Of a stretch of DNA of 20,400 nt, positions 1,790-20,262 are shown piece after piece. Position numbers and translations under genes: made by a program. The notes under the pieces were generated by a model that was given only the letters and a program-made list of their open reading frames with translations, was not told where the DNA came from and made no database searches. Every line of letters begins with the position of its first letter. Positions within the stretch are counted from its first letter, which is position 1. The DNA lies in the IMG/VR virus record IMGVR_UViG_3300048015_000211, positions 1 to 20,400 of that record; one strand, written 5' to 3'. The stretch comes from a virus.

Positions 1790-1927
1790 GGTGCCTCGAA
1801 TGGATTGGGATGCGCTTGAAACCTGTAGCGATCGGGCCTATATTCGCCCTTGATCGATTGCGTTCCGGACGTCAGACCCAAGGTGTTTTGCGCCAAACAA
1901 AATTGCATGAAGGGATCGGTCACACTG

Positions 1928-2365: not shown

Positions 2366-2429
2366 GCCCGCCCAGCGGCCGTTTTCATCGCGCGGCTGAT
2401 TGGGATTCCAGGTCCGCAGATTTACAAAG

Positions 2430-3875: not shown

Positions 3876-3906
3876 GCAGGAACATAGACATCACCCCGTG
3901 CTGATA

Positions 3907-6172: not shown

Positions 6173-6303
6173 CGAAGAACCTCTGGCAAACAGCGCGCGA
6201 AACCCGAAAAAAAAGTTTTACGAATTTCGCGCGCGAGAAAATTTGTTTGGGGGCCGGTCGCGGGGGGAGAGGGTTGGAATGGAGGAAAACCCCCTACCCC
6301 CTT
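6173..6303. other. Non-coding spacer between HNH and terminase genes; candidate cos region with a 10-bp inverted repeat
   Basis: This 131-bp gap holds a perfect 10-bp inverted repeat, GCGCGCGAAA at 6193-6202 and TTTCGCGCGC at 6225-6234, separated by 22 bp containing an A8 tract. A strongly G-rich block follows (about 6248-6290). Cohesive-end sites of HK97-type phages usually lie next to the HNH/small-terminase genes, so this is a reasonable place for cos and its terminase-binding site. No nick site can be assigned from sequence alone. It does not look like a terminator, because no T-run follows the stem on either strand. Confidence 0.3.
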
Positions 6304-6588
6304 CTAGCCCTTGCGGCCATGGCGGCGATTGTCACAGGCAGGGCACAGCGTGCGCAGGTTGGCGGGGACGTCTGCCCCGCCCTCGCGGCGCGGCTGGATA
6401 TGGTCGACGATCAGGCGCTGCCCATAGCCGCGCCCCGGTGTTGTGCAATCCGGCCAGATGCAGCGATGGCGATCACGCGCCAGGACCAGCTGACGCAAAG
6501 CCTTCCATTCCGGCGATTGGTAAAAGGGATCCGTCTTTTTCGGCGGCGGCTGCGGCACGCCTCGATGAATTGGCGGGGCAAAGGGCAT
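6304..6588 (-). CDS. HNH endonuclease of the packaging module
   Basis: This 94-aa protein, counted from the ATG at 6586-6588, has a compact HNH nuclease motif. Zinc ligand pairs are Cys43/Cys48 and Cys82/Cys85. The catalytic pair Asp62-His63 lies in LIVDHIQPRREGG, Asn77 in ANLRTLCP, and His90 in CDNRRHGR. In HK97 and many cos phages an HNH protein encoded beside the terminase stimulates cleavage at cos. The neighbourhood here is the same, with small and large terminase genes directly downstream. A Pro-rich N-terminus precedes the domain. The ribosome site is weak, and a GTG one codon upstream is an alternative start. Confidence 0.88.
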   Translation of the reverse strand: MPFAPPIHRGVPQPPPKKTDPFYQSPEWKALRQLVLARDRHRCIWPDCTTPGRGYGQRLIVDHIQPRREGGADVPANLRTLCPACDNRRHGRKG

Positions 6589-7016
6589 CACATCTTGGCC
6601 CCGAAAAGATTACGCCCGGCAGGAACATCCAACCGGGCGCAAATCATCACAGTGAACAATCGATACCCCAACAGGCGGCACCTAGTCAAGCCAGAAACCA
6701 CCACATTTAGTGAAAATCATGCCGATACCTGTGTATCAGGGCTTATTAGGGCATTTATTAGGTGCTTAAGCCCATGTATTTATTTATTTAAATTTAATCC
6801 TAATAAAATAATAACACATAAGAGTGCTGGCCCATGACGCATGAAGAATGACGCAAAAGCCGTTCTCACCCGCGCGTACCAGCGCGCGTTACAGGAAGCA
6901 GAACATAGCAATGCGCGCACAAAGGATGTGCGCCTTAGTTTATTAGGCTTTATTAGGCCGCTGAAATTAAACGGGAATTTCCAAATATTTTTTATTAGGC
7001 TTTTGGACCAAGCCTA
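6589..7016. other. AT-rich non-coding region, candidate replication origin or late-control region
   Basis: This 428-bp gap separates the replication genes from the packaging genes. It contains a short AT-rich tract (about 6776-6822), repeated TATTAGG motifs, a GATAC-CTGT-GTATC dyad at 6724-6737 and a GCGCAC/GTGCGC hairpin at 6915-6933. No convincing gene was found in it. Together the features resemble an origin next to the initiator or helicase gene, and a promoter for the downstream late genes may also lie here. Function is inferred from layout only. Confidence 0.4.
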
Positions 7017-7021
7017 TTAGG
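6742..7021 (+). repeat. Iteron-like cluster of (T)TTATTAGG repeats
   Basis: The core TATTAGG occurs in direct orientation at 6744-6750, 6756-6762, 6941-6947, 6951-6957, 6993-6999 and 7015-7021. An inverted copy, CCTAATA, lies at 6799-6805. Four of the direct copies extend exactly to TTTATTAGG or its one-base variant. Pairs are spaced 12 and 10 bp apart, about one helical turn. Seven copies in 280 bp is far above chance for a 7-mer. The last copy overlaps the TAA stop of the helicase gene. Confidence 0.65.
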
Positions 7022-8816
7022 GCGTCCCATCTGGATACGGGTTACTGCCATCGGGCCGCAATCCGACACTGGTCTGGGCCATTGGCAAGGATGCAATAGG
7101 CACCGCCACCGAATGGGCGGTGACACCCGCAAACCACACCGCCCTAAAGCTTATCGCCCCAGGGAAGCGCTTGATCGACCGGGTCCAGCCGCCGTTCCAT
7201 TTTGTCTGTTCGAAGAGTTTTTGCAACTGCCTATGTTTTGTCGCCACGATCAAGTGCGGGGTGACAGGGCGTTGCGGATCGTCCAGTTCATTTAGCCAGC
7301 GCACCCGCAGGCCGTGTCGCCCCAAATCCTTGTCATGCGGCCCGATGCCATCGGTCATATCGACACCGTCGATAAAATCTCTAATGGCTTCGCCAATTGC
7401 CTTCGCATAGCGGCCGCCGGTGGATGCTTCCACCGTCATGGTCGTCGACAGAAGATGCAATGCGCATTCCATATGATCGAGCGATTCCGTTGATCCAATC
7501 ATGGTTTCCGTGTCGAAGAGATCAACCAGGCGCTGAGCCTCAAGCGCGTTCAGCGGACTATCGGATAGGCACGTATAAGCCGCGCCTAACAACGCGCCCA
7601 ATAAATCGCCCATGCGCCCGCGATCGGCAGGCCGCAATGCCTGACGCACCGCGTGAATGTTTTCACGGAACCGGGTAAACCCTTCCACAATGCGCGCGCG
7701 CAAGACCGGGCCATGGGAAGAGGCGCGCCGGATTAAATCAACGGCGGTGCGATCATTGGGATTGGTCAGCGGCAAAAGGTCCAGCATCGCGACGCGGCCC
7801 ATATCCGCCCGGTTAAGCGGGGCCGGGTTGATCGAGGCAAACAGAAATGTCGCCCTTATGGCATATTCAATCGTGCTGCCCGATGGCGATCCGCGACCAA
7901 CACCGGCCTGATCTTCGGTGGATGCAAGCCGTGCCAGATCCACCAGGGCCGGAACGCGGTCGGAATTGCCCTTATTTTCGGATTCGTCCATCAAAACCGG
8001 ACGCGCCGCGCCATTTAATTTAAGCCCGATAAAGGTGCGCGACGGCTCAGCCGAGCGGATCACCGAACATCCCAGCAAATCGCGGATCAATAATTCAAGT
8101 GTTGATTTGCCCGTGTTACTATCCCCGGTCAGCCAGATATGCGGCCTGAATTCCAAGGCGCCGCAAATCATCGAACACGCGATCCAGCCCAAGGCCAAAT
8201 AGGGATCACCATCCGGCCGCGCCCAGTTCCAGGTATTGAGCGCATCCAGCAATTCATCAACGGCTGCAATATTGTCATGAGGCTTTTCGGCGGGACGCGG
8301 CTGGGGCGGCCCGGCGGCATATATCAACCGGTCCAGCTGCCTGCCGGCAGATAATTTTTCAACCTTGCGGCCGCCGAATATCTGCAAGCAATCGCCTAGA
8401 TGCAGAAGCAAGCGGCCATCAGCCAATCGCCAGGCACCTGGCCCGCGAACTTGTTCGGCATAGTCAAATGAACCGGCGCGATGGCATTCCAATATCAAAT
8501 ATTCAACAATGATATCGACCCGCCACAATGACGTTTTTCCTTGGGGCGGGGCATAAGCATTGCACCACCAGGTTTGCCCCTCAAACAAGGCAACCAGGCG
8601 CTTGTGACTGTGATGATCAACATGAAGCGCCGTGACGCGGCCCGATGGCCCTAAATAAAAATACATGTCGCCGTCAAAGCCCAAAGCCTGCACGGGACAG
8701 GGTGCAATCGGCTTGCCCGGGCCGCCATCTTCATGCGGGGGTTCACCGCTGCCGCCGCCGGCGGCGTCAAATGCCGCATCAATTGCCTGGTCCAATTTTT
8801 GGGTACGCTTAGCCAT
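7017..8816 (-). CDS. Phage replicative helicase-like P-loop ATPase
   Basis: This protein is about 599 aa from the ATG at 8814-8816 (MAKRTQKL). It carries a clear Walker [12 protein letters not shown] (near residues 229-239), and a Walker B-like VLMDESE (near 274-280), followed by a sensor-type [10 protein letters not shown] segment. This matches the SF3/AAA-like helicase domain of phage and plasmid replication proteins (DUF5906/VirE-like group). The N-terminal 200 residues hold an uncharacterised domain that could be primase- or loader-related. Its start overlaps the primase stop by 8 bp, so the pair is co-translated and likely acts as one primase-helicase unit. The frame extends to an ATG at 8835-8837, but the MAKR start fits the coupling better. 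The TAA stop falls in the TATTAGG repeat cluster. Confidence 0.78.
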
Positions 8817-9969
8817 CTTGCACCATGTCATTGGCATCGAGGCCGCGTTCGGGCCAGATCACGCCGACCCGTTTGGAAAATGGATAATTCCCGGCAAATT
8901 TGGTACGCGCGCGATTAATCATGGCGCGGTTATGGGCCGGATTGTGGCCGTCATTATCGGCAATGATCAAGCAGGTCTTGACATCCGGTGGCAGGACAAG
9001 GCCGGGATTATCCCGATCCGGTACCGGCGTTGATTCCACCCGCCCCTGCACGCCATAGCGCCTGTGACTTTCATTCAACATTTTTTGCGCCTTTGGACAG
9101 CCGCCCCCGGCTAAATTTCCCAGGCTTCCCGCCGCCCATACCGCTATGTCGGGGCGCCGTTGACGCACGGATAGACTGCTTTCAATCCCCTCGCCCACGG
9201 CCAGAATATCTTGTTCCGGATAAAGCCGGATGGCGCAGCCCCAATAGGCCCCTTGAATTTTCTTTGACGGCAGGAATTCCCCGGTCTGGGGATGAATGAT
9301 TTCGGCTTTGCCGGATCCATCTTTAGCCAGATAGGTCACATGCGCCGCCTGGATTTCACCGGCACGATCGCGCATCGCAGCGATCTTTGCCGGGAAATGA
9401 CCAATCAACATGGTCCGATCCTCATTAGCGCGCGGCGCCCAATATTCAAGCCCCGCGATAAAGCCAACATCTTGCGGCAGACCAATGGCATCCAGATGCA
9501 AGCCCCGCGCCGCCCAATAGTTTACAACCAGGCTGCCGCCAACCGGTTTCGCGCGCGCGATCAGGCTTAAAGCCCGTTCGCGCTTTTTAATGGCCAGTGC
9601 CTGTTCTTTTTTTGCGCTTGCCGCCTGTTCCGCCCGATAGCGCGCGGCGGCCGCTGCCCGCTGGGCCGGATCCGACGGCACGCGCCCCAGCAAGCGGTTA
9701 ACCGTGCTTTGAAAATCGGTGCCGTCATGGCGCATGAAGAATTCGATCACGTCCCCCTTGGCCCCGCATCCAAAGCATTTGAAATAGCCTTCCGCGCCCA
9801 TGACGTGGAATGACGGACTGCGTTCATTATGAAACGGACAGCAGGCCCAATAGTCCCGCCGCCCCGCCACGGATTTGCGCATATTCCATTGCACCACGCG
9901 GCCGATTTCATCTTCGATCCGCAAGGCTTTGACAGCGGCAATATCATCGATTTGAATAACGCCGCTCAT
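8809..9969 (-). CDS. DNA primase, CHC2 zinc finger plus Toprim domain
   Basis: This 386-aa protein is a bacterial-type primase as found in phages. The CHC2 zinc finger has Cys44 and His47 ([11 protein letters not shown]) and Cys65 and Cys68 (CFGCGAKGD), with the expected 17-residue spacing between pairs. The Toprim part shows the conserved Glu in [11 protein letters not shown] and the DxD pair in [10 protein letters not shown] near residues 335-342. A basic, Ala/Arg-rich linker (about 100-135) joins the two. It would synthesise RNA primers for phage replication together with the ATPase encoded immediately downstream. The ATG overlaps the end of the ParB-like gene by four bases, so the genes are coupled. 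Confidence 0.9.
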
Positions 9970-11246
9970 TTACGCCCCCGCGCCTTGCTGCGCGAGACGC
10001 GCTGGGTGGCCATATCCGATTGGGCTTGTGTGATTGCCAAGGCGCGGGCGGTCAAACCATTATTTAGCGGCTCCGCCCCCTTGACCGGTTCCAAATAGGC
10101 GGTTGGACATTTGGTCCATTTACCCGCTGCAATCGCCGCCTCAATCAAAGCCGGATCCGTTGACTTCCCGCGCGGCAGTTGCATAGGCGGGGATTTTCTT
10201 TCAACCGGCGGCAAGACCATGGGGGCCGGTTTGGGTATTAGTGCTTTTGCCGGTTTAGGGGCCGGTCTACGAGCTGGCGCCTGTATGGGTTTGGGTATTG
10301 CATCCGCTGCCGGTGATGTGATGGTTTTCAATGGCGCCGGTGGACGTAATCCGCCCGCGCGAATGACGGCATCGGCCAATAATCCAGCCAGCACGGAAAA
10401 GAGCAATTGATTGGTGGCAGCGCGGTCCATTTGTGCTTGGGTCAAAAGCTGTGTGCCTTTATCCGCGATGACCTTGATCATCACATCATCATCCAGCCGC
10501 GCCCCGTGCGGATCGACAAATAGCGCGTTTTCAATGGCCCGCAACCAAGCAATCGTGATCGGTGTCAAATGGGCTGTCACGCCGATTTTAATCACGCGGA
10601 TCGCCGCCGCCTCATCCCGGCGTGCGATCAGCGACCCCACACCGGCAATCGCGATAATATCGCCCGGTTTGAACAGGCCCATGGTTGGCGGCAATTTCAA
10701 AATACGCGCGCCGGCCGCCCGGCTGACCCGGTCAATGGCAACAGCCCATGGATCCCCGGCAATGACGGCGGATGCATATAATTGGGTTGAATGGAGCGCT
10801 GTGCGATCCCGGTTGCGGCCGACAAAGGCATCCGCCCGTTGGGCTGCATCGGGTGCTTCAACCACCATGATCGGAATTAAATCAATATCCGTGCGCATCG
10901 ATGCGGCGATTGCCGTGTGCTGGCCATCCAGCAAATGCAATTTGCCATCAACCCGCACACAGGCTGGCGGCTGGAATTTGCGCCAATCCCAGCCATTATG
11001 AATGCGCCTGATATTGCCCAGCGATTTTTCCGATAATATGCGCTGATAGGTTGGATCGATATAAAGATCACAAGGCCGCGCCATTTCAAAAACCGGCCGG
11101 GCGCTGGTAACCGGCTGGGCGTTTAAGCCCGGCATATCAATGGGTGCAATCTGGCGCAACCCATCCGCCGTGACGGGTGCCAAGCCGATCGCCTTTTCAT
11201 TCAAACGAACGCGGCGCGCATGTGGTTTTTCTGTGCTTATGGGCAT
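9966..11246 (-). CDS. ParB-like nuclease-fold protein with Pro/Lys-rich linker (early leftward operon)
   Basis: The start is taken as the ATG at 11244-11246, giving 426 aa; an upstream frame adds 16 residues. The N-terminal half contains a ParB/Srx-type core with [19 protein letters not shown] (DGQHTA at 107-112) preceded by YIDPTYQR, as in phage DUF6551-like proteins. The middle is helical. Residues about 310-375 form a Pro/Ala/Lys-rich linker. The C-terminus is basic (SRSKARGRK), suggesting nucleic-acid binding. It lies between a 63-aa gene (10-bp overlap) and the primase (4-bp overlap), so a role in replication or DNA handling is likely. A true partition role is doubtful, because no ParA is present nearby. 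Confidence 0.65.
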
Positions 11247-11428
11247 GAGGTTTGGCACCGGTATAAAATGGCATCCGCGATTTTTTTGGCCCAATAGGGC
11301 AAAGCGGAATCAGGCACGACATGATCGCGGTATTGGCCGGTTTCAGGCATGAACACTTGAACAACCAGCCGGTTTTCAGCATCGAGTTTCGGATGCACGC
11401 GCGGATCATTTGGGATGATGCCGGTCAT
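11237..11428 (-). CDS. Small conserved-looking phage protein (63 aa), unknown function
   Basis: The ATG at 11426-11428 overlaps the TGA of the upstream gene as ATGA, and the stop overlaps the start of the ParB-like gene. This indicates a real, translationally coupled gene. The protein (MTGIIPNDPRVHPKLDAENR...) is soluble, has no signal peptide or membrane segment and ends in a Cys-containing tail. I do not recognise a family. Being in the early leftward operon between a regulator-like protein and a ParB-like protein, it probably serves early phage functions. Confidence 0.6.
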   Translation of the reverse strand: MTGIIPNDPRVHPKLDAENRLVVQVFMPETGQYRDHVVPDSALPYWAKKIADAILYRCQTSCP

Positions 11429-12447
11429 GCTAATACCTCGTCGCGGCTTAAGGCCGCCGCCAAATTCTGCAGCCCCTTTTGCACCGCGAATTGCACCATG
11501 CCGCGTTTAGCGGGCAAACCATGCGTGTCTTCAATATCGCGAATGGGCAGGTTGCGAATAACGACGGCCTCAATCAACGGCCAAAGCCCAATACCCACCA
11601 AGTAGCGCGCCTGTCTTAAAGCCTGCCCCGCATCCAGGCGATCAATGCCATCAAAAGCGCGGGCCGATGTATCAACAATCGGCCGCATGGGATTAACGGC
11701 GCGCACGCCGCCGCCGCCGGCGCATTCCCACCAATCAACCAATTTAATGGCCGCCGCTATTTCGGCATCCGACAATTTATTGTGAGCAATGAACCAGGTT
11801 AATCCCGGTATTTCCTTTTTAACCGCCTGCCCATCGATTTGTGTGGCCGTTGCAATCATATGCTGATCGCGAAAAGGTCTTATTTCCTTCCCTTCGGTCG
11901 CAGCACCCTTTTTGCGCGCACAGCGCAGCGCCCGATCGCGCCGGGCTGAAAAGACATATTCATCCGACAGAACATAAGTGCCGGTCGGTGATAATTTGAT
12001 CAGACCTTGGCTTTCTGCCTCGCGCGCGATTTTGGCGGCATCCGGAAACAGTCCTGAAATCTCCGCTTGATCCGCAATACCCGATTGAATGGCCTGGGCA
12101 ATCCGTTTGAACTGGGCGGCCCATTTGGCGGATTTATCAGCCGCGATTTCAGAGGGTTTGTGATTGGCATCTTTATCTAGGGACAAAACCCATGTGGAAT
12201 AGGCGCTGGTCAGAATACAGATGCCACCTATGATTTGAATAAAATCGCGGCGTTGCATTTCCAATAATATGGCGGCGGCATCGGGGAAAAGGGCTGCAAT
12301 CTGGTCAGGGCGGCTTTGGCCGTCTTCAATCCGCCGCGCGATGCGGCGGCATTTCTGTGCCCATTCACGCTTGGCCTGCGCCAGGGCATCCATTTGCGGG
12401 GTGGCAATAGTGGTCGTGGCTGATCGCGGCATCAATCGATCCCGCAT
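11425..12447 (-). CDS. Early phage protein with two tandem helical repeats and a DUF6456-like C-terminus
   Basis: The protein is about 340 aa from the ATG at 12445-12447; an ATG at 12430-12432 overlapping the previous stop is also plausible. It contains an obvious internal duplication of about 50 residues. Residues 31-80 (RIARRIEDG, LFPDAAAI, then ILTS) and residues 111-160 (RIAQAIQSG, LFPDAAKI, then YVLS) align with an exact 80-residue offset. Each looks like a small winged-helix-type unit. The C-terminal part (RQARYLVGIGLWPLIEAVVI, then GLPAKRGMVQFAVQKGL) resembles the DUF6456-type domain of alphaproteobacterial phage regulators; that resemblance is weak. A DNA-binding role in early gene control or replication is inferred. 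It ends in an ATGA overlap with the next gene. Confidence 0.6.
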   Translation of the reverse strand: MRDRLMPRSATTTIATPQMDALAQAKREWAQKCRRIARRIEDGQSRPDQIAALFPDAAAILLEMQRRDFIQIIGGICILTSAYSTWVLSLDKDANHKPSEIAADKSAKWAAQFKRIAQAIQSGIADQAEISGLFPDAAKIAREAESQGLIKLSPTGTYVLSDEYVFSARRDRALRCARKKGAATEGKEIRPFRDQHMIATATQIDGQAVKKEIPGLTWFIAHNKLSDAEIAAAIKLVDWWECAGGGGVRAVNPMRPIVDTSARAFDGIDRLDAGQALRQARYLVGIGLWPLIEAVVIRNLPIRDIEDTHGLPAKRGMVQFAVQKGLQNLAAALSRDEVLA

Positions 12448-12851
12448 TGTGGTTTGCCCTGGCGCCAATCGGTTCTGTCAACGCGCGAATTGCCGGGCCA
12501 GGAGGATGTGAGTGTTCGGGGCTGCCCCTGCCCTGTTGCGGCGATAGACGGTTTGGGCCCGATCACGGCCTGCAAATGGGTTTTAAGCGCGCGGTCCATG
12601 ATTTCCAATTCGCGGCCGCAGGCCTTGTTCTGACGGCTTAGGCACAACACATCACAACAGGCCCGGAAGAGCGCGCGCAGCGTTTCGGCATGGGGATGGT
12701 CGGTCAATAAATGGCAAGCGCCCACATCTTCGATGGCATTCGCCAATTCATCACGCTCTTTGGGTCCAACCCCCGACGTTGCCTTGTAGGCCGCCCCCGT
12801 CAGCGCCGCATGGGCTGATTTGGGCGAGACTTGGCGGGGGGCGGCGGTCAT
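12432..12851 (-). CDS. Hypothetical early phage protein (139 aa)
   Basis: The ATG at 12849-12851 lies five bases after the stop of the Cro-like gene, and the end overlaps the next gene, so it belongs to the leftward early operon. The central part (residues about 30-95) is helical and holds four Cys (ACHLL, RACCDVLCLSRQNKACG), which may bind a metal. The C-terminal 40 residues are Gly/Pro/Ser-rich and probably disordered. I recognise no family. A partial operator-like sequence sits 21-40 bp upstream of its start, within the end of the preceding gene. Confidence 0.55.
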   Translation of the reverse strand: MTAAPRQVSPKSAHAALTGAAYKATSGVGPKERDELANAIEDVGACHLLTDHPHAETLRALFRACCDVLCLSRQNKACGRELEIMDRALKTHLQAVIGPKPSIAATGQGQPRTLTSSWPGNSRVDRTDWRQGKPQCGID

Positions 12852-12856
12852 GGGGC

Positions 12857-13174
12857 TTAGGCCTCTAAGCCCAATGGTATATTTACCGCATTTTCCTTGC
12901 CACCATTTAAAAGTTGTGGCACGCTATCATTGGTCTGAGGGGCCGGACGGGTAACTTCGGACGGCCAGGCGAGATCTGATGGCCATTTGTCAAAGATGCC
13001 CGCGATAATCTCTTCGGCCCGGCGTTCGGTGATACGCCCCGCCCCCTCTGCCGTGGACAACAAGCCCACCAGCTTGGAGTCACCGGTCAATTTTTTGGAC
13101 ACCGTTGTCGGCGCGCGCCCGGTATGGCGCCGATAAGCATCCGCGAGCACGAGGATTTGTTGAGACAGCTTCAT
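12857..13174 (-). CDS. Cro-like small regulator, first gene of the leftward early operon
   Basis: The start is placed at the ATG at 13172-13174, which has AGGA six to seven bases upstream; a GTG at 13201 would add nine residues. The 105-aa product begins MKLSQQILVLADAYRRHTGR, then APTTVSKKLTGD, and continues to ITERRAEEIIAGIFDKWP. This layout is typical of short HTH-type proteins encoded divergently from the repressor in alphaproteobacterial phages, with the second helix pair at residues 10-30 as the DNA-binding candidate. By position it is the Cro or early-activator counterpart of the divergent repressor gene. It is transcribed from a promoter whose -10 and spacer are covered by a perfect palindromic operator, so repression by the neighbouring HTH protein is likely. 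Confidence 0.62.
   Translation of the reverse strand: MKLSQQILVLADAYRRHTGRAPTTVSKKLTGDSKLVGLLSTAEGAGRITERRAEEIIAGIFDKWPSDLAWPSEVTRPAPQTNDSVPQLLNGGKENAVNIPLGLEA
12872..12891. promoter_or_regulatory. Degenerate operator within the end of the Cro-like gene
   Basis: The right arm TACCGCAT and the GGTA of the left arm match the phage operator with the same 4-bp spacer; the outer left arm does not match. It lies 21-40 bp upstream of the next gene. It could be a weak operator or chance. Confidence 0.25.
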
Positions 13175-13210
13175 TGCAATTCCTATCCGGTGCGGCTCCA
13201 CATTATGGGC

Positions 13211-13298
13211 GTGCGGTATGATTCGCCCCCAATATGCGGTACATTTACCGCATTCGTCAACCCTGAATTTACCGCATCTTGCGGCAGCGTTACCGCGT
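13211..13298. promoter_or_regulatory. Operator cluster between Cro-like gene and repressor (OR-like)
   Basis: The perfect 20-bp palindrome ATGCGGTA-CATT-TACCGCAT lies at 13234-13253. It is flanked by a half-site GTGCGGTA (13211-13218), a half-site TACCGCAT (13270-13277) and an imperfect full site TGCGGCA-GCGT-TACCGCG (13280-13297). The core 18 bp is identical, on the opposite strand, to the site at 15601-15618. Multiple graded sites between divergent regulator genes are what a lambda-like switch would show. The repressor gene at 13305 is the obvious candidate binder. Confidence 0.75.
13231..13260 (-). promoter_or_regulatory. Leftward early promoter overlapped by the main operator
   Basis: On the minus strand TTGACG (13255-13260) and CATATT (13231-13236) are spaced 18 bp apart. 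The perfect operator fills the spacer and the edge of the -10, so bound repressor would exclude RNA polymerase. It drives the Cro-like gene and probably the whole early leftward operon. Confidence 0.6.
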
Positions 13299-13304
13299 GA
13301 CCCA

Positions 13305-13799
13305 ATGACCGTGGCGCGGTATCACTTTGGGATGTGGGACCCATTGCCAAAATTACTGGAATTTATTGACCGGAAGCTGGCTGAGCATGGCCTTACCGAG
13401 GCGCAGGCGCGGAGAAGTGCGGGCATCACCAACCGCGATTTATTCCGTAATGCCCGGCGCGGATCGATGCCGGAAACCCGCAATTTGCATTTGATAGCAA
13501 AGGCGCTTCGTGTCACCTACGAAGAACTGGTTCAATTCATTCAAGAGCCGGTTGGGCCGGATACCCAAATTTCCTTGACCTATCTGGCTAATACCAATGC
13601 CGACAATGCGCCGGCGCGAGCCAAGGCGGCGGCCCGGCTGGTATTAGGCATGGCTTATGCGCGGCAAATAACTTTATCCGTTGAAGATGCCGCCGCCATG
13701 ATCGAACTGGTTGTCGAAAAAATGCAGGAAACGGATGGCGCCGACGATGAACGGCTTAAAGTCGCCGTTGATATGGCCCTGAGCCTTTTAAAACGATAA
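13305..13799 (+). CDS. HTH (XRE-type) phage repressor candidate
   Basis: The protein is 164 aa from the ATG at 13305, or 155 aa from the ATG at 13332 (MWDPLPKLLEF). An ATG at 13218 is unlikely, because that region contains the operators. Neither preferred start has a good ribosome site, so translation may be weak or nearly leaderless. The N-terminal 65 residues fit an XRE-type HTH: KLAEHGLTEAQARRSAGITNRDLFRNARRG, then LHLIAKALRVTYEELV. The remainder is helical with no S24 peptidase domain, so classical RecA-dependent self-cleavage is not expected. Divergent orientation from the Cro-like gene and adjacent palindromic operators make it the lysogeny repressor candidate. It ends convergently with, and overlaps by 12 bp, the small membrane protein gene. 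Confidence 0.72.
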   Translation: MTVARYHFGMWDPLPKLLEFIDRKLAEHGLTEAQARRSAGITNRDLFRNARRGSMPETRNLHLIAKALRVTYEELVQFIQEPVGPDTQISLTYLANTNADNAPARAKAAARLVLGMAYARQITLSVEDAAAMIELVVEKMQETDGADDERLKVAVDMALSLLKR

Positions 13800-14000
13800 C
13801 CCGAACCGCCAGGCAATAATAGCGATCAGGACAATTCCAAACCAAGACGCCAATTTCAGCCGGCGCCGCAACTGGTTTTTGCGCTCGATTTGATCGAAAC
13901 GATCGTTCAGCGCCAGAATGACCCGGCCCAATTGCTGTGCCGTGATTACCTTAGGTTCGCCGGATTCTAGGTGTCCGGGACCATGGATGATTTCAGACAT
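13788..14000 (-). CDS. 70-aa single-pass membrane protein coupled to luxR
   Basis: The ATG at 13998-14000 lies inside the last codons of luxR (8-bp overlap) with GAGGGG just upstream, so the two are translated from one mRNA. Residues 20-48 form a charged amphipathic helix (QQLGRVILALNDRFDQIERK, then RRRLK). A hydrophobic segment at about 50-68 (LASWFGIVLIAIIAWRFGL) is a likely membrane anchor. The basic residues before it predict a cytoplasmic N-terminus. No family is recognised. Small proteins encoded beside phage LuxR receptors can act as antagonists (I recall one in an Aeromonas phage), and a superinfection or lysis-timing role is also possible. All roles are inference. Confidence 0.62.
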   Translation of the reverse strand: MSEIIHGPGHLESGEPKVITAQQLGRVILALNDRFDQIERKNQLRRRLKLASWFGIVLIAIIAWRFGLSF

Positions 14001-14736
14001 CTGCGCCCCTCAAGGGCGGTGCCGAAATTATGCCCGCACCAATAGCCAATGCGATTAGTTCATTGTCATTACTTGCCCCCAAGCGGCGCCGCGCGCGGCC
14101 CACCGTACCTTTGACAGCGTCAATGCTAATTTCGTTAATGGCCGCGATTTCTTTTAGCCTTAACCCGCGTGATAAATGCTCAACCACCCGAACTTGGGTC
14201 GGGGTAAGCAAAGCGGGCCGCGCTTGAGCGTTTAGGGTCATATCCCAAGCAACCGCCATATAAATGCGCGAAATTTCCGCAAACAAGGCAATTGTTTCCG
14301 GATCATCCAATGCCCGTTTGCCGCCAAAAGCTGCGACCCACACCGAACCGTCAAGCCCCCAATGGGAGGAACATACACCATGCAGCAATCCATGGTCGGC
14401 CGCCGCGGCCATAACCTGGCGGCTGGCCTGGGATTTAACATCAATAGCCGGATCGGCCCAGGAAAAGGCCCCCTCTACTTTATGGGCATGGGCAACCAAT
14501 GGATCGCGCCGGATGAAATTTTGATTGTTATATTCAACCAGCCATGACCTGCCGCGGGTATCGCCCAGACGCAAACATAAGGGGGCCCCGGATGCAGATA
14601 GGGGCAGACGCACGACATGCCACAAATCAGGCCGTGCCGGCATCAGCAACGCTTCAAATGCGGTATTTAATTGCGGTAAATAGGTAAAGTGCCGGGCCGT
14701 TCGAATAAACCGTTTTGCCGCATCAATATCGATCAT
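13993..14736 (-). CDS. luxR: LuxR-family acyl-homoserine-lactone receptor/transcription factor
   Basis: The start is placed at the ATG at 14734-14736 (MIDIDAAKRF, 247 aa), with a GGGTGGG stretch upstream; the frame extends seven codons further. The N-terminal autoinducer-binding domain keeps the whole ligand-pocket signature at family spacing: Trp65, Tyr69, Asp78, Pro79 and Trp93 (equivalent to TraR Trp57, Tyr61, Asp70, Pro71 and Trp85). The C-terminal GerE/LuxR HTH spans about 177-237 (LTPTQVRVVEHLSRGLRLKE, then IAAINEISIDAVKGTVGRAR). The usual Glu of the LTxxE motif is Gln here. It is divergent from a luxI gene and upstream of a coupled membrane-protein gene. An intact pocket argues for real acyl-homoserine-lactone sensing rather than a decayed regulator. 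Confidence 0.88.
   Translation of the reverse strand: MIDIDAAKRFIRTARHFTYLPQLNTAFEALLMPARPDLWHVVRLPLSASGAPLCLRLGDTRGRSWLVEYNNQNFIRRDPLVAHAHKVEGAFSWADPAIDVKSQASRQVMAAAADHGLLHGVCSSHWGLDGSVWVAAFGGKRALDDPETIALFAEISRIYMAVAWDMTLNAQARPALLTPTQVRVVEHLSRGLRLKEIAAINEISIDAVKGTVGRARRRLGASNDNELIALAIGAGIISAPPLRGADV
14658..14678. promoter_or_regulatory. Two direct operator half-sites inside the luxR coding start
   Basis: ATGCGGTA (14658-14665) and TTGCGGTA (14671-14678) repeat the left arm of the phage operator 13 bp apart, about 60-80 bp inside luxR. If bound they could roadblock luxR transcription. They are half-sites only and encode normal-looking protein, so this is weak. Confidence 0.25.
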
Positions 14737-14783
14737 AACCCACCCCGCACAAAACACACTACCCTTGGTATGATAATGACCCT

Positions 14784-14812
14784 AATATATACGGCTTAAA
14801 GTGTCTACACAA
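14784..14812 (-). promoter_or_regulatory. luxR promoter
   Basis: On the minus strand TTGTGT (14807-14812) and TATATT (14784-14789) are spaced exactly 17 bp apart, a good housekeeping-type promoter about 40-50 bp upstream of the luxR ATG. The -35 element lies within the TACAC-AAAA-GTGTA dyad. Confidence 0.55.
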
Positions 14813-14819
14813 AAGTGTA
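14798..14819. promoter_or_regulatory. Candidate LuxR-binding site (nested dyads) between luxR and luxI
   Basis: TACAC-AAAA-GTGTA (14806-14819) is a perfect 5-bp dyad. GTGTCTACAC (14801-14810) is a second, overlapping dyad, and AAAGTGT repeats directly at 14798 and 14812. It sits 71-92 bp upstream of luxI and over the luxR -35. It does not match the classical 20-bp lux box closely, so assignment rests on position and symmetry. Confidence 0.45.
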
Positions 14820-14889
14820 TTTTTTTGACCGCCCGCCTTGCACCGCGAATCAGGCAATCTAAACGTGCTTTTACTTCACGGAGGCACCT

Positions 14890-15540
14890 ATGATTGACCC
14901 GCACAAACTTACCATGTCCCGCATCGGGGCCAGTCAGTTTACCGCAAAACGCGATGACCTGACCACAACCCTGGAACAACGATACCGCATTTTTACACTG
15001 GGACTTAAATGGTTTCCCGAAAATGCCCAGCAACAGGAAAAGGATGGGTATGATTTTTTGCCCTCAACCGAATATCTTTTGGTCTATCACGACCAGCAGG
15101 TGATCAGTTCGATCCGCATGCTTTTGGGCACCCACCCAACCCTGTCCAGCGGTCCCTTGCGATCATTCTGGACCCATGAAGCGCCGCCAGCGGGGCGCCA
15201 GACCGCGGAATCGACGCGCGGCTATACAATTGCCGAAGGGCCGCGCGAGATGGTCACCTTGATCCGGGCTATTGGGGCGGTTGGGTGTATGGAATGGGCC
15301 GTACAAACCGGCATCCGGCGCATGTTCGGCGTGATGGATACCCGCATGATAGCGGCATTTCAGGGTATTGGCTGGCCTATGGATTTTGGCGGGGATCCGA
15401 TTGCCATGCCCGAAGGCGGCATGACGGCGGCTGTTAGCTGGGAATGCACCCAAGATATATTGGAAGAATCCCGCCATCGCATTGGTATTTCCCGGCCCAT
15501 CTTGATCAGTGGAAACAGTGAAAATATCGAAGCGGCTTAA
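14890..15540 (+). CDS. luxI: LuxI-family acyl-homoserine-lactone synthase
   Basis: This 216-aa protein would make N-acyl-homoserine lactones from S-adenosylmethionine and an acyl donor. All invariant LuxI-family residues are present at nearly canonical spacing: Arg31, Phe35, Trp41, Asp52, Asp55 (EKDGYD), Arg76 (SSIRML), then Glu107 and Arg110 (ESTRGYTI). These correspond to EsaI Arg24, Phe28, Trp34, Asp45, Asp48, Arg68, Glu97 and Arg100. Length is normal for the family. The ATG has an excellent GGAGG five bases upstream (14880-14884). It is divergent from luxR, with a dyad between them. A LuxI on a phage control cassette is unusual; the acyl chain specificity cannot be read from sequence. Confidence 0.9.
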   Translation: MIDPHKLTMSRIGASQFTAKRDDLTTTLEQRYRIFTLGLKWFPENAQQQEKDGYDFLPSTEYLLVYHDQQVISSIRMLLGTHPTLSSGPLRSFWTHEAPPAGRQTAESTRGYTIAEGPREMVTLIRAIGAVGCMEWAVQTGIRRMFGVMDTRMIAAFQGIGWPMDFGGDPIAMPEGGMTAAVSWECTQDILEESRHRIGISRPILISGNSENIEAA

Positions 15541-15546
15541 ATATTA

Positions 15547-15583
15547 AGGCGGCGCAATGCGGTAAAAACCCGCCGCGCCGCCT
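15547..15583 (+). terminator. Strong stem-loop after luxI
   Basis: AGGCGGCGC (15547-15555) pairs perfectly with GCGCCGCCT (15575-15583), and GCGG/CCGC in the loop can extend the fold. It starts six bases after the luxI stop. No clean T-run follows, so termination efficiency is uncertain. It would partly insulate the rightward operon from luxI transcription. The loop contains another operator half-site, ATGCGGTA. Confidence 0.45.
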
Positions 15584-15599
15584 GCCTATTTCAAGAAAT

Positions 15600-15648
15600 T
15601 TGCGGTAAATGTACCGCAATTAGTCTTGACGTGGTAAATGTACCGCAA
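15600..15648. promoter_or_regulatory. Operator pair at the rightward early promoter (OL-like)
   Basis: TTGCGGTA-AATG-TACCGCAA (15600-15619) is a perfect 20-bp palindrome whose inner 18 bp equal the operator near the repressor gene. A second site at 15629-15648 has an identical spacer and right arm with a degenerate left arm (ACGTGGTA). The two begin 29 bp apart, about three helical turns, which suits cooperative binding on one DNA face. Confidence 0.75.
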
Positions 15649-15654
15649 GATAGT
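15626..15654 (+). promoter_or_regulatory. Rightward early promoter
   Basis: TTGACG (15626-15631) and GATAGT (15649-15654) are 17 bp apart, with the second operator lying in the spacer, as at the leftward promoter. It is followed by a gene with a good ribosome site and by a long overlapping operon. Confidence 0.6.
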
Positions 15655-15685
15655 GTCCCTAACACGCCTGATTCGCGAGGGGGAC

Positions 15686-15985
15686 ATGACCGCAACCAAA
15701 TCAAACCATTCACGCGCCCTGCCCGGCATTGACACCTATGGCCGGTTCGGGTCCGGGCGTATCGGCATGGTCGGGGCGGCCGAACGCACCGGCTATAATG
15801 GGGCCATGGTCCGGCTGGACTATCCCAATGGCGACCGGTCCTATCAGCCCCTGGCGGCTTTTGTGCCGGTCGACGAGGCTGAAGGCTTGGCGGCCATCAA
15901 AGCGGCTCTGGACGCGGTCAACGCGCGCCGCGCCGCCTTTAGTGTCATTGAGGGCAGCCCATCATTGAATGGCGGCCGGGCATGA
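15686..15985 (+). CDS. Hypothetical protein (99 aa), first gene of the rightward operon
   Basis: The ATG at 15686 has GAGGGGG just upstream; an in-frame ATG at 15638 lies inside the operator and is rejected. The protein is soluble and Gly/Ala-rich (RFGSGRIGMVGAAERTGYNG, then MVRLDYPNGDRSYQPLAAF) with a helical C-terminal third. I recognise no family. As the first gene behind a repressor-controlled promoter it is an early gene, possibly regulatory or anti-host. Confidence 0.6.
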   Translation: MTATKSNHSRALPGIDTYGRFGSGRIGMVGAAERTGYNGAMVRLDYPNGDRSYQPLAAFVPVDEAEGLAAIKAALDAVNARRAAFSVIEGSPSLNGGRA

Positions 15986-16125
15986 GCAACGCGATTTTTG
16001 CTGCCGCCCGCCGCCGCCGTGCGCGGCCCCGGTTTTTGACGCCCTATGCCCGCATCTGGATTTTTGGCCTGGCCAAGACCTTTATCGCGATCGGGGCCGT
16101 GCGCGTGATTTTGGGGGCGTTGTGA
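15982..16125 (+). CDS. 47-aa basic, hydrophobic-tailed small protein
   Basis: ATGA overlap with the previous gene and TGATG overlap with the next support this short gene. The N-terminus is very Arg-rich (AAARRRRARPRF). Residues about 25-46 (IWIFGLAKTFIAIGAVRVIL) are hydrophobic enough for one membrane segment or an amphipathic helix. Function is unknown. Small phage proteins of this shape are sometimes membrane-active, but nothing here proves it. Confidence 0.5.
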   Translation: MSNAIFAAARRRRARPRFLTPYARIWIFGLAKTFIAIGAVRVILGAL

Positions 16126-16349
16126 TGGGACGCTATGAAGCCATCGCACCTGAAGCGCCCAGCGAACCGCGTTCGCTGCTGGCGGCGGGCACCAAAATCC
16201 AAGTCAGCGATGTGACCTATCCCGGCTCGGTTCTGACCGTGGTTGCCGATCGGGGAAATGTGATTTGCGTGCGCGATGATGTCTTTGCGCAGCGCTTTAT
16301 CACCGCATCCTGCATCCGCTTCATTTGTGTGGAGGACGAAGCGCCATGA
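16125..16349 (+). CDS. Hypothetical protein (74 aa)
   Basis: The ATG at 16125 overlaps the previous TGA (TGATG), and its own stop overlaps the next ATG. The protein has a beta-rich core (GTKIQVSDVTYPGSVLTVVA, then DRGNVICVRDDVF, then RFICVED) resembling a small barrel such as SH3-like folds, though I recognise no specific family. The longer frame starting at 15969 is rejected, because it would overlap the small Arg-rich gene entirely. Confidence 0.5.
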   Translation: MGRYEAIAPEAPSEPRSLLAAGTKIQVSDVTYPGSVLTVVADRGNVICVRDDVFAQRFITASCIRFICVEDEAP

Positions 16350-16606
16350 TGTCAAAACCCAAATCCATGCATTGGGATTATATCCGCGCCGCGATGAATG
16401 GCGGCATGTCCGTGGAAAATATTGCAGCCCTTGGGGTCGATCCGGGCCAGATCAAAATCGCGCTTAATGCAGAGGCCAAGGAAAGCCCGGTCGGCCGGGT
16501 GCCGACCAAAGAGCAGATGGACGCGCTGTATCAAGGTCAGCGGTATGAAGATGTCACCTTTCGCGACCGCCCAATCCGCCCGGCCGGTCAAATGGTGCGG
16601 GTATGA
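16346..16606 (+). CDS. Hypothetical small protein (86 aa), possible HTH
   Basis: The start ATGATG at 16346 overlaps the preceding stop, with GGAGG upstream at about 16331. The N-terminal half (YIRAAMNGGMSVENIAALGV, then DPGQIKIALN) reads like a helix-turn-helix, which suggests DNA binding. The remainder is charged. No family is recognised. It ends in an ATGA overlap with the next gene. Confidence 0.52.
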   Translation: MMSKPKSMHWDYIRAAMNGGMSVENIAALGVDPGQIKIALNAEAKESPVGRVPTKEQMDALYQGQRYEDVTFRDRPIRPAGQMVRV

Positions 16607-16779
16607 GCATTTTCATTTTGCCCGCTGTGCAATTGGCCCAGCAAATTGAAGCCCTGGACGCGTTGGGCGAACACGGCGCCGCCAAACTTTTGCGCGCCAT
16701 GCAGCCCTTGGCCAATCAACCGATCCGCCGCGAAACCCGCCGCGACCGCGCCTTTTCAATCAAGGAATGCAAAAGATGA
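16603..16779 (+). CDS. Hypothetical small protein (58 aa)
   Basis: The gene is bounded by ATGA overlaps on both sides, which supports translation. The product is mainly helical (VQLAQQIEALDALGEHGAAK), has a basic C-terminal part (RRETRRDRAF) and ends CKR. Function is unknown. It may be a partner or leader for the ParB gene that follows. Confidence 0.45.
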   Translation: MSIFILPAVQLAQQIEALDALGEHGAAKLLRAMQPLANQPIRRETRRDRAFSIKECKR

Positions 16780-18290
16780 ATGCCCCCATCAAAATCATAA
16801 CCGCCGAAGCCTTGGCTTTTTTGAAATGGGTCAACGATCACCCAAATCAGGAATTGCCCGCATTCCGTACACTTGGCGCCGAACTGGGCATATCACATAC
16901 GGCCGTCAATAAATTCCGCGTTAAATTGGTTGAAGCCGGTTTGATGGTGATCGACATTGACGGCCCGTTTTTGACAGATGCGGGCATACGCGAATTGGAC
17001 GCCCAAAAAGCCGCGAACGCCGATCGCGAAGGGGTGGATTTGACAGCCCAAGCGCGGGCATCCATTCCGCTCACTGCTATACGGCCAAGCGCGCTCAACC
17101 CGCGCAAGCACTTCGATCAAGACGCTTTGGAAGAATTAGCCGCTTCGATCCGGCAGGATGGTTTGATCGAACCGCTTAAACTGCATGAATTGGGCGCGGG
17201 TCAATATGAAATCATCGCCGGCGAACGCCGCTGGCGCGCCCTGTGTATCAATCGTGATTTATACAATTGCTCTCCCGATCTTGAGCCGGAAGATTACCGC
17301 ATCAAGCCGTTTCAAAGCGAAGCGCGCCATCGCGCAATCGCGCTCATCGAAAACATGCAGCGCGAAAACTTATCACCCATGGAAGAAGCACGCGCCTTTG
17401 ACGCCTTGGCTGACTGCGGCTGGTCCAATGGCGACATTGCCGATGCGATCAAAAAAACGGTCCGCTTCGTGCAGGACCGCCGAGCCTTGACGGCGAAATT
17501 AGCCCCCGAAATTGTCACAGCACTTGAACAGGGTCAAATCACCGTCAGCCATGCGCGGGAATTGGCGCGGGCCAATCATGCCATTCAATTGGAGTGGCTG
17601 GACGTCACCCACGGGATGTCGATAGACGAAGATGTCGCGGCCTTTGTCAGAACCCGGATAGAAGCACCGCCAAAGGAAAAACCACATCAACGGACCATGG
17701 GTTTAGCCCAGCCTGACCAGACTGAGCCGGAAGAAACCAAAGAGGATGATGGCGAGGAAACCATAGATGATGATCAGCCGGGTGAGGCCGATGCGCCGCC
17801 AGAAGATGATGATCCGGAACAGACGAATGAACAGCCGGCAGAACCGCCGCCGCCCTCCCCGTCAAATTCGATCAACCAAGCGGAATTAATCAAGATCGAT
17901 AAATTCAAAACCGACTTGCGCCGCGCGATTGTGAAAGCCAGCGAAGATATTCAAATATCCATCCTGATCCAGGCTATCGCCCAGAACCGTTTTCCAAACG
18001 CCGATTTCGAAATAGCGCTCAACGTCTCTCACCATAAATTTTGCCAGGAAATTAGTATTGATTTGTCCGATGTTATTCCGCGCCATGACCGGGCACTAAC
18101 CCATCCGGAACAATATTTTATTAATATTTTTTGTGCCGACAACACGCGCGGCGAAGCACTGGGTACGCTTGCGGCATGCTGCCTGATCATCGAAGGGCCC
18201 GACGGAATCACACCCTCTGCGCAATATATCGCCGATAAATTGGGCGTCCGCGTTCCGAAATCATTAGTCCGCGAAGTGGACGCCGCGTGA
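16776..18290 (+). CDS. ParB-family protein with N-terminal winged helix and acidic linker
   Basis: The ATG at 16776, overlapping the prior stop, has AAGGA nine bases upstream and gives 504 aa; an ATG at 16767 is too close to that site. Residues about 8-75 look like a winged helix-turn-helix (FRTLGAELGISHTAVNKFRV). Residues about 97-205 are the ParB/Spo0J nuclease-like core: NPRKHFDQDALEELAASIRQ, GERRWRA at 149-155, and ENMQRENLSPMEEA at 192-205. A KorB/ParB-type HTH follows to about 265. A very acidic, Pro-rich linker (about 312-362) leads to an unrecognised C-terminal domain. No ParA is encoded beside it, so a regulatory or DNA-organising role is as likely as partition. Confidence 0.8.
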   Translation: MNAPIKIITAEALAFLKWVNDHPNQELPAFRTLGAELGISHTAVNKFRVKLVEAGLMVIDIDGPFLTDAGIRELDAQKAANADREGVDLTAQARASIPLTAIRPSALNPRKHFDQDALEELAASIRQDGLIEPLKLHELGAGQYEIIAGERRWRALCINRDLYNCSPDLEPEDYRIKPFQSEARHRAIALIENMQRENLSPMEEARAFDALADCGWSNGDIADAIKKTVRFVQDRRALTAKLAPEIVTALEQGQITVSHARELARANHAIQLEWLDVTHGMSIDEDVAAFVRTRIEAPPKEKPHQRTMGLAQPDQTEPEETKEDDGEETIDDDQPGEADAPPEDDDPEQTNEQPAEPPPPSPSNSINQAELIKIDKFKTDLRRAIVKASEDIQISILIQAIAQNRFPNADFEIALNVSHHKFCQEISIDLSDVIPRHDRALTHPEQYFINIFCADNTRGEALGTLAACCLIIEGPDGITPSAQYIADKLGVRVPKSLVREVDAA

Positions 18291-18880
18291 ACGCCCCTGC
18301 GATCAACCGGCATAAATCGGCCGACTATGTCCGCGACCCCCATGATTGGTATGTCGAGGATGAACCTTGCGTCGATGCCCTGCTTGATTATTTAGCCCTT
18401 GATCGCGGAACGACAATTTTGGACCCGCATGCCGGCGGCGGCAATTTGATTGACCGGTGCCGCGCACGCGAACTGGACGCCCATGGGTCAGATCTGATTG
18501 ATCGTGGCCGGCCGGACATTCGCACGCCAATCGACTTCCTAACTTTTTCAGGGCTGTATGCGCCGCGTAGCTATGATTGGGTCATATCGAATCCACCCTT
18601 TTATAATGGCGAAGGCCATTTTGATTTTTTACCGAATGCACTGCGCGTCGCACGCATTGGTGTTGCCATGGTCTGCCCCGCCCCGCTTCTGTTCAGTCAA
18701 AAGCGCAAGCGGTTGTGGACCAGTCAAAAGCCTAACCAACTTCTATTTTTATCTAAACGGCCCTCAATGCCACCAGGCGAGTATTTGCGTGCAGGCGGCA
18801 AACGCAAAGGCGGCAAGGAAGACTATTTCTGGGCCATCTGGTGCGGAGAGTTCAGCCTCAATGATTATGATTGGCTATAG
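18287..18880 (+). CDS. SAM-dependent DNA methyltransferase-like protein (N6-adenine type motif)
   Basis: This 197-aa protein begins with GTG in a GTGA overlap with parB. The SAM-binding motif I is ILDPHAGGGN (44-53), and the catalytic motif IV is SNPPFYNG (101-108), as in N6-adenine or N4-cytosine DNA methyltransferases. The acidic motif (HGSDLIDRG) lies between. The small size and lack of a target-recognition domain are typical of phage orphan methyltransferases. No restriction enzyme gene is adjacent. It may protect phage DNA from host restriction or mark it for regulation. Confidence 0.75.
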   Translation: MNAPAINRHKSADYVRDPHDWYVEDEPCVDALLDYLALDRGTTILDPHAGGGNLIDRCRARELDAHGSDLIDRGRPDIRTPIDFLTFSGLYAPRSYDWVISNPPFYNGEGHFDFLPNALRVARIGVAMVCPAPLLFSQKRKRLWTSQKPNQLLFLSKRPSMPPGEYLRAGGKRKGGKEDYFWAIWCGEFSLNDYDWL

Positions 18881-18891
18881 GAGAGATTAAA

Positions 18892-19167
18892 ATGTTTAGC
18901 CTGTTTGGTTTTAAGAAGATCGAAACTGCAGAATCCGAACTGCAGATCACGGACGAACGCGGCAAGGATGCGCCGCCCTTGGATCCCGTGCGGCCACCTT
19001 GGCATGGTTTAAATAGTGATGAAGCACGCTTGCGCGACATCGCCGCAAGTCTACGTTTCGGTACCAGCATCAGCCGCACCAAAATCTGGTGGCTGCTATG
19101 CTACGCGCTGGATCCAGTCAGGGAACGCAGCAAGCTGCGGCTGGCCGATCTTCTCACCGCACGATAG
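18892..19167 (+). CDS. Hypothetical protein (91 aa)
   Basis: The ATG at 18892 has GGAGA at good spacing. The N-terminus (MFSLFGFKKIE) is hydrophobic then charged. Residues 40-91 are helical (SDEARLRDIAASLRFG, then SRTKIWWLLCYALDP). No family is recognised. It is the next gene of the rightward operon after the methyltransferase. Confidence 0.5.
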   Translation: MFSLFGFKKIETAESELQITDERGKDAPPLDPVRPPWHGLNSDEARLRDIAASLRFGTSISRTKIWWLLCYALDPVRERSKLRLADLLTAR

Positions 19168-19178
19168 GGGCGGACAAA

Positions 19179-19496
19179 ATGACCCTAGACACAACACAAA
19201 TCCGCGCTCGAATGGAACAAGCTCAATTTCCAGGGCTCCATCAACATTATTCCGTAGCCGCCCTCTGCGATGAAGTAGATGCACTGCGTAAGAAGGTGGC
19301 AGGATTAGAAACAAAAAACGCCAAATTAGAAGAAGTCAGAGCCTTTGCTCAGCTGGTCGCGGATGAATTTGAACTCAGTCCGGGCGGTGACTTGTATCAA
19401 TTCACAGGTAGCACGAACAATATAGACGGATTACGCGACGCGCTTGAGGTCGCCCGCTCGGTAACGCCCCTACCAACCCCACCAATTGAGGACTGA
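19179..19496 (+). CDS. Hypothetical coiled-coil protein (105 aa)
   Basis: The ATG at 19179 has AGGGG upstream. Residues about 25-60 (VAALCDEVDALRKKVAGLET, then KNAKLEEV) form a clear heptad coiled coil, followed by a globular-looking end. This pattern is common in small phage proteins of unknown function. The stop precedes the next start by three bases. Confidence 0.5.
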   Translation: MTLDTTQIRARMEQAQFPGLHQHYSVAALCDEVDALRKKVAGLETKNAKLEEVRAFAQLVADEFELSPGGDLYQFTGSTNNIDGLRDALEVARSVTPLPTPPIED

Positions 19497-19499
19497 GTG

Positions 19500-19691
19500 A
19501 TGAACGTGCTTGATACTCATACGATCACCATCAGCGTCAGGCGCATTGATTTGGCAGCACTGCGCAAACTCTCGACAGTGTCGCATACGCTCGCAAAGCA
19601 ATTGGATCCCATGACCGGCATAGAACAGACCGCATTGGTCAGCGTGCTTGATAACCTAATAAACCAGATTGCGGTCAAGACCAATTTTTAG
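19500..19691 (+). CDS. Hypothetical protein (63 aa)
   Basis: The ATG at 19500 follows the previous TGA closely; a GTG at 19497 is the alternative. The protein begins with a beta-like stretch (HTITISVRRIDL) and continues in helices (LRKLSTVSHTLAKQLD, then TALVSVLDNLINQIAV). No family is recognised. Codon pattern and tight spacing support a real gene. Confidence 0.45.
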   Translation: MNVLDTHTITISVRRIDLAALRKLSTVSHTLAKQLDPMTGIEQTALVSVLDNLINQIAVKTNF

Positions 19692-19704
19692 AAAGGATCA
19701 CCCC

Positions 19705-19830
19705 TTGTTCCTATTGCTCTTAATTCTAAACGCCGCCCCGCACGTCTTCATGATCGGCAATATGCTGGCCGATGATCGCGCGGGCGAAAGATACACCAAC
19801 CGCCCAGGTGGCCCGCGCAGGGGTGTTTGA
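19705..19830 (+). CDS. Possible 41-aa peptide with hydrophobic N-terminus (TTG start)
   Basis: AAGGA at 19693-19697 is well spaced for the TTG at 19705. The frame then stays open to TGA at 19828, three bases before the next ATG. The product begins with eight hydrophobic residues (MFLLLLIL) and then a polar tail, like a short signal or membrane peptide. It is listed because otherwise this 142-bp gap is unexplained; evidence is thin. Confidence 0.35.
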   Translation: MFLLLLILNAAPHVFMIGNMLADDRAGERYTNRPGGPRRGV

Positions 19831-19833
19831 CCA

Positions 19834-20262
19834 ATGGTTACCTATAGCTTTCAACGCCAATTTGTCAAACCGATTTTGGCGCGGACTAAGATCCAGACGA
19901 TCCGCAGCAACCGGGCGCGGCATGCGCGGCCCGGCGAAGAATTGCAGCTTTACACCGGCATGCGGACCAAACACTGCAAACTGATCTGCCGGGCGATCTG
20001 CACCCAAGTCGATGTGATCACCATGTTTTTGCCGCAATGGAATAACGTTGTAAAAATCAATGGCCAGTTTTTGCCAGAGAAAGAACTGGAAGCACTTGCG
20101 ATCAAAGACGGATTTGAAAGCTGGCAGAAAATGCGCAAATTCTGGTTCGATTGGCATGGCCGAGACGATAGCCAGCATCACCGCCTTGTTGAATTTGAAG
20201 GGGTCATTATTAGCTGGGATCCGATGTCCATAACTGCCGCGACGGATTTGCCCAATCCATGA
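19834..20262 (+). CDS. ASCH-domain protein
   Basis: This 142-aa protein has the ASCH/PUA-like pattern seen in many phage proteins: FQRQFVKPILARTKIQTIR, then ARHARPGEELQLYTGMRTK, then a DGFESWQKMRKFWFDWHG helix. ASCH domains have an RNA-binding fold and are suspected to bind RNA or modified nucleotides; the role in phages is unknown. Its end overlaps the next ATG (ATGA), so it is coupled to the excisionase-like gene. Confidence 0.72.
   Translation: MVTYSFQRQFVKPILARTKIQTIRSNRARHARPGEELQLYTGMRTKHCKLICRAICTQVDVITMFLPQWNNVVKINGQFLPEKELEALAIKDGFESWQKMRKFWFDWHGRDDSQHHRLVEFEGVIISWDPMSITAATDLPNP

Follow-up and report, generated by a model that had tools for sequence, protein, structure and literature searches.

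The stretch of DNA analysed here, hereafter the window, is the whole of the IMG/VR virus record IMGVR_UViG_3300048015_000211, a linear fragment of 20,400 bases without end repeats. Most of its genes are arranged in two blocks. The leftward block, on the minus strand (542-13201), encodes a protease, the portal protein (2430-3875), the large and small terminase subunits TerL (3907-5628) and TerS, an HNH nuclease, a primase/helicase, a ParB-like protein and unknowns. The rightward block, on the plus strand (15638-20262), opens with a gene at 15638-15985, whose ATG is at 15638 or 15686, and includes a ParB-like protein (16767-18290, +) and a DNA methyltransferase. Phage genes are therefore present on both sides of the central region; portal and TerL were assigned by family matches, and the portal ties the contig to a phage. 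This portal is 49-57% identical to its nearest sequenced relatives, found in a Rhodospirillaceae MAG and in Xanthobacter and Rhodoblastus prophages, and an alphaproteobacterium is our best guess for the host. The two ParB-like proteins, one per early operon, are distinct, that of the leftward operon (9966-11294) matching phrog_1033 and the other ParB_N. The first leftward gene (12857-13201, -) has a 20-bp palindrome, GGGCTTAGGCCTCTAAGCCC (80% symmetric, 12853-12872), at its 3′ end. Neither Rfam families nor tRNA were found in the window.

Between the two blocks are located, in this order, a regulator gene (13305-13799, +), an ORF of 70 aa (13788-14000, -), luxR (13993-14736, -) and luxI (14890-15540, +). 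A first-pass annotation, made from the sequence alone, had recognized the luxR-luxI pair and had placed it between the phage repressor gene and the rightward early operon; this placement is correct, and Pfam scores above the cut-offs support both identities. The 216-aa LuxI matches Autoind_synth (PF00765) with E=6e-11 and 42.7 bits, for a gathering cut-off of 24, and is also recognized by NCBIfam. As had been claimed, all eight invariant residues of the family (R31, F35, W41, D52, D55, R76, E107 and R110) are intact; in our alignment of 36 sequences, R31, D52, R76 and R110 are invariant and F35, W41, D55 and E107 are conserved at 90% or more. The AlphaFold2 model, built with 32 sequences, has a mean pLDDT of 92.8 and its closest PDB structures are the AHL synthases BjaI (E=1.8e-17, TM 0.82), MesI, RpaI, TofI and LasI. 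The CoA-dependent enzymes BjaI, MesI and RpaI lead these matches, a ranking which is no guide to substrate preference. Family, residues and fold thus confirm a LuxI-type synthase, which is predicted to produce an AHL.

The 247-aa LuxR, for which an alternative GTG start exists at 14757, contains both expected domains, Autoind_bind (45.5 bits, cut-off 23) and GerE (24.7 bits, cut-off 23.5), and its PDB relatives are CviR, TraR, RhlR and LasR. The AHL pocket residues W65, Y69, D78, P79 and W93, already reported as intact, are conserved, and so is G120. In the DNA-binding domain, as read from the alignment, Gln and Val occupy positions where Glu and Leu are usual, while the Gly is retained; the Glu to Gln change, a small deviation, had escaped the earlier annotation, as had the 70-aa ORF and the paired operators described below. 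The protein is confirmed as a LuxR-type receptor by its domains and pocket; its binding of AHL is predicted and that of DNA putative.

Both proteins are isolated in sequence space. Among 36 LuxI proteins placed in a tree, the branch of the window is the longest and its placement is not settled; such a divergence may mean that the product is an uncommon AHL. At the sensitivity used, close relatives were found neither for LuxI in IMG/VR, INPHARED or GTDB contigs nor for LuxR in IMG/VR or INPHARED, and a scan with an alignment of distant LuxI gave zero viral matches. Genome sets were also chosen via the distant portal-bearing relative, the Rhodospirillaceae MAG, and no LuxI above 33% identity was present in 317 genomes of the same order or in 385 of the same class. 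Eleven viral records having related portals were also searched with proteins and yielded no luxI. Around some 40 cellular luxI loci, a limited set of phage proteins detected no prophage signal, apart from one nearby GTA-like cluster. In one alphaproteobacterial genome, about 4 kb separate a bacterial luxR/luxI pair, on the upstream side, from a gene-transfer-agent-like cluster with terminase, portal, protease and capsid genes (8975-10345 and 14008-18351).

The regulator (164 aa) is probably a Cro/C1-type repressor, considering its match to phrog_8 (E=0.004) and its position beside the operators. HTH matches fall below the cut-off (HTH_3, E=0.045; HTH_26, E=0.05), and its structure model, all-helical and of low confidence, gave no significant match in a fold search. 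The assignment is thus weak by sequence and by fold, which counts against the interpretation that we favour below. No S24 self-cleavage domain was found in the protein, so that an SOS-type induction is not obvious. Close relatives of the repressor, of the helicase or of the gene at 12857-13201 were absent from IMG/VR. The 70-aa ORF, directly downstream of luxR, bridges the two regulatory genes, since it shares 8 bp with luxR and, at its other end, 12 bp with the 3′ end of the repressor gene. It has no significant family match in profile searches. Its C-terminus, read by eye, carries a hydrophobic stretch resembling a membrane anchor, and it is a candidate small antirepressor.

This cassette is flanked by matching operator-like palindromes. 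On the left, the 18-bp TGCGGTACATTTACCGCA (13235-13252) is the exact reverse complement of TGCGGTAAATGTACCGCA (15601-15618) on the right. Each is accompanied by a second copy with 2 mismatches, at 13280-13297 on the left, with a half-site at 13267-13278, and at 15630-15647 on the right. Simulation of 300 sequences with the dinucleotide composition of the window never produced a perfect match, and four matches with at most 2 mismatches are seen for 0.06 expected in such sequences. A PL-like leftward promoter, TTGACG-18-CATATT (13231-13260, -), overlaps the left operator, and a PR-like rightward promoter, TTGACG-17-GATAGT (15626-15654, +), overlaps the right set, the second right operator falling between its -35 and -10. 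Both promoters are consensus matches only; such matches are no more numerous in the region than by chance and are weak evidence alone, but two of the three coincide with operators. These features suggest a lambda-type immunity region, bounded by matched operators, with predicted repressor binding, at two outward promoter-like sites. As the cassette lies between these sites, the repressor gene, the 70-aa ORF, luxR and luxI are therefore outside both early transcripts and, judging from this anatomy, should be expressed in lysogens. A hairpin after luxI (15539-15591; arms 15539-15555 and 15575-15591, 82% complementary) is possibly a transcript end separating luxI from PR.

The search for a LuxR target gave one lead. 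The 12-mer CGCGAATCAGGC occurs in the luxR-luxI intergenic region (14844-14855, +) and, inverted, in the PR leader (15666-15677, -), just downstream of PR and beside the start of the first rightward gene; these are its only exact copies in the window. A shared word of at least 12 nt arises in about 0.25% of shuffled pairs (0.0025 uncorrected), nearer 1% when corrected for the three region pairs. The 12-mer could be bound by LuxR, which would link LuxR to PR, or by a different regulator, or it could serve in RNA-RNA pairing; we regard it as a lead and not as a finding. No canonical lux box was seen and no motif is common with the repressor promoter, two results that count against our preferred interpretation. 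The sequence TACACAAAAGTGTA (14806-14819) was rejected as a lux box, being no better than chance, and folding of the leader RNA revealed nothing unusual.

A phage carrying both its own AHL sender and receiver had been considered rare or undescribed in the first-pass annotation. This does not hold, phage luxI/luxR signalling as a general phenomenon being already known: luxI adjoining luxR was noted by Silpe and Bassler in 2019 in an uncharacterised Myoviridae contig (PMC6456758), and Bunsick et al. described in a 2026 preprint two unrelated Phaeobacter prophages whose functional LuxI/LuxR pairs make distinct AHLs driving lysogeny (PMC13345283). In those prophages, LuxR-AHL activates an xre-luxR-luxI lysogeny operon; such modules recur in Roseobacter prophages, 53 of the 93 in that set carrying luxI, and were found in the Roseobacter clade only (PMC13345283). 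The gene identities, their intactness and their location thus stand, but not the novelty of the pair. New here are the divergent luxR/luxI with a separate repressor and two-sided operators, proteins at most 33% identical to anything found, and the phage backbone.

The Roseobacter modules are the closest parallel. In both systems, the lysis-lysogeny switch combines phage LuxI and LuxR with an XRE-like regulator and with a gene of opposite orientation, and in both the signal is predicted to be made by lysogens only. The gene at 12857-13201 (phrog_7669, -), first of the leftward operon, is divergent from the repressor gene, with the operators in between; it may correspond to the counter-oriented hth of the Roseobacter modules, which is divergent from xre. 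However, the Roseobacter operon is co-directional, whereas in the window the repressor (+), luxR (-) and luxI (+) alternate and luxR and luxI diverge. Here the repressor has a separate transcript, convergent with that of luxR and the 70-aa ORF, matching operators flank the whole cassette and a second early operon lies beyond luxI. The backbone, nearest to Rhodospirillaceae, Xanthobacter and Rhodoblastus prophages, has no known Roseobacter kin.

Other systems share fewer features. Myoviridae sp. ctcg_2 (MH622937), a putative phage contig with luxI beside luxR, is likened here by description only (PMC6456758). The Aeromonas phages ARM81ld and Apop and the TF-smORF modules also combine a phage LuxR, an XRE-type protein and a nearby small ORF, but they listen to host AHL and no luxI is reported in the module (PMC6456758, PMC10432266); in TF-smORF modules the small gene diverges from that of the TF, whereas the 70-aa ORF is co-directional with luxR and downstream of it. 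The AHL synthase fold also exists in two lytic roseophages, RDJL Phi 2, whose annotated AHL synthetase was found by structure search, and Dinoroseobacter phage vB_DshS_R26L (PP882867.1), whose gene 2 (276-767) encodes a 163-aa LuxI-like protein annotated as hypothetical. These solo proteins are shorter and lie outside an immunity region, with no annotated luxR nearby in the R26L stretch. TraI/TraR of rhizobial conjugative plasmids give a significant LuxI match, with divergent luxR/luxI on several plasmids, yet identity is at most about 32%, they control conjugation and their neighbours differ. Arbitrium (AimR/AimP) of Bacillus phages resembles the logic that we propose, a phage-made signal reporting lysogen density, but relies on a peptide and an unrelated receptor and has no part in common with LuxI/LuxR. 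INPHARED matches to another LuxI were rejected as phage luxI/luxR pairs, as they include evident host DNA and unverified scaffolds. Two records named 'Acinetobacter phage MD-2021a' (CAKLQH020000009.1 and CAKLQF020000013.1) seem to be, at least in part, host chromosome and not phage; in the stretch examined, the former has bacterial content, namely a lasI/sdiA region accompanied by NRPS and fatty-acid genes.

We consider it probable, though far from assured, that this phage, presumed temperate, carries its own LuxI sender and LuxR receiver within its immunity region as a sensor of lysogen density feeding the lysis-lysogeny decision. That lysogens broadcast their abundance to bias this decision, as already suggested in the first-pass annotation, fits the anatomy of the locus and has been shown for Phaeobacter prophages. 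By binding the matched operators that close the region on either side, the repressor would shut PL and PR, while its own gene, luxR, the small ORF that follows luxR, and luxI, lying between the outward early promoters, would be on in the lysogen. Lysogens would then release AHL via LuxI, its level reporting their density, and LuxR would sense it, its output shifting the balance between repressor and PR. Most likely, LuxR-AHL would keep lysogeny when lysogens are common, a direction taken from the Phaeobacter prophages. The families, residues and fold of the two proteins, the paired operators overlapping outward promoter-like sites, the base composition and long branch of the pair, the shared 12-mer and the Phaeobacter precedent (PMC13345283) all support this interpretation. 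Two other points count against it. An integrase or any other lysogeny gene is absent from the 20,400-base fragment. Moreover, at the sensitivity used, no second phage with a repressor-luxR-luxI cassette was found in IMG/VR, INPHARED or GTDB representatives, and hence there is no comparative evidence of maintained selection.

The opposite outcome, in which high AHL induces the phage, is modelled on VP882 and on the Aeromonas XRE/LuxR-smORF modules. LuxR-AHL would raise its own operon, and either the 70-aa ORF would inactivate the repressor or the convergent transcript would silence it. The position of this homologue-less ORF, directly downstream of luxR, which it overlaps, and converging on the repressor gene with a 12-bp overlap, agrees with such a scheme, and there is precedent for a TF-smORF logic with phage LuxR (PMC10432266). 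We nevertheless find it unlikely: known modules have their smORF divergent from the TF and respond to a signal produced by the host, and a self-made, lysogen-only signal inducing lysis would defeat its own purpose where lysogens are dense. Still more doubtful is that the pair is a moron of lysogenic conversion, rewiring or mimicking host quorum sensing and foreign to the phage switch. Like the lambda rex genes, luxR and luxI are outside PL/PR control, and Phaeobacter phage A also activates host quorum sensing (PMC13345283); however, the operator-bounded placement and the 12-mer common with the PR leader point to the switch. Finally, a misassembly joining host luxR-luxI DNA to phage DNA is unlikely and, even together with decayed passenger genes, such an artefact is very improbable: the cassette is known from one metagenomic contig, with no second copy in IMG/VR or GTDB contig searches, but the 70-aa ORF overlaps luxR and the repressor gene alike, matching operators are found on either outer side, reading frames and active sites are intact, luxI and luxR come near the range spanned by the phage genes of the window in base composition, no similar pair exists in the cellular genomes searched (identity at most 33%), and recent host contamination is disfavoured because of the very long LuxI branch and the lack of a near cellular relative.

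Returning to the sensor of lysogen density, a bolder version can be proposed, which we hold to be speculative and on balance improbable. A non-Roseobacter phage would have assembled, independently, a sender-receiver AHL circuit within an immunity region of lambda-like type whose operators stand on both sides. The shared 12-bp site would let LuxR-AHL control PR and the luxI promoter directly, the repressor would be modulated by way of a small membrane protein, the product of the ORF that follows luxR, and the divergent LuxI would make an unusual AHL. The region is compact, about 2.4 kb with mapped candidate operators, and is directly testable in E. coli reporters. If the locus works as a sensor of lysogen density, in either version, phage-made AHL signalling would no longer be confined to the single bacterial clade from which it is known, and would be wired into a different type of switch, with a separate repressor and two-sided operators. 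This would support the view that arbitrium-like census-taking has been put together more than once from parts of bacterial quorum sensing.
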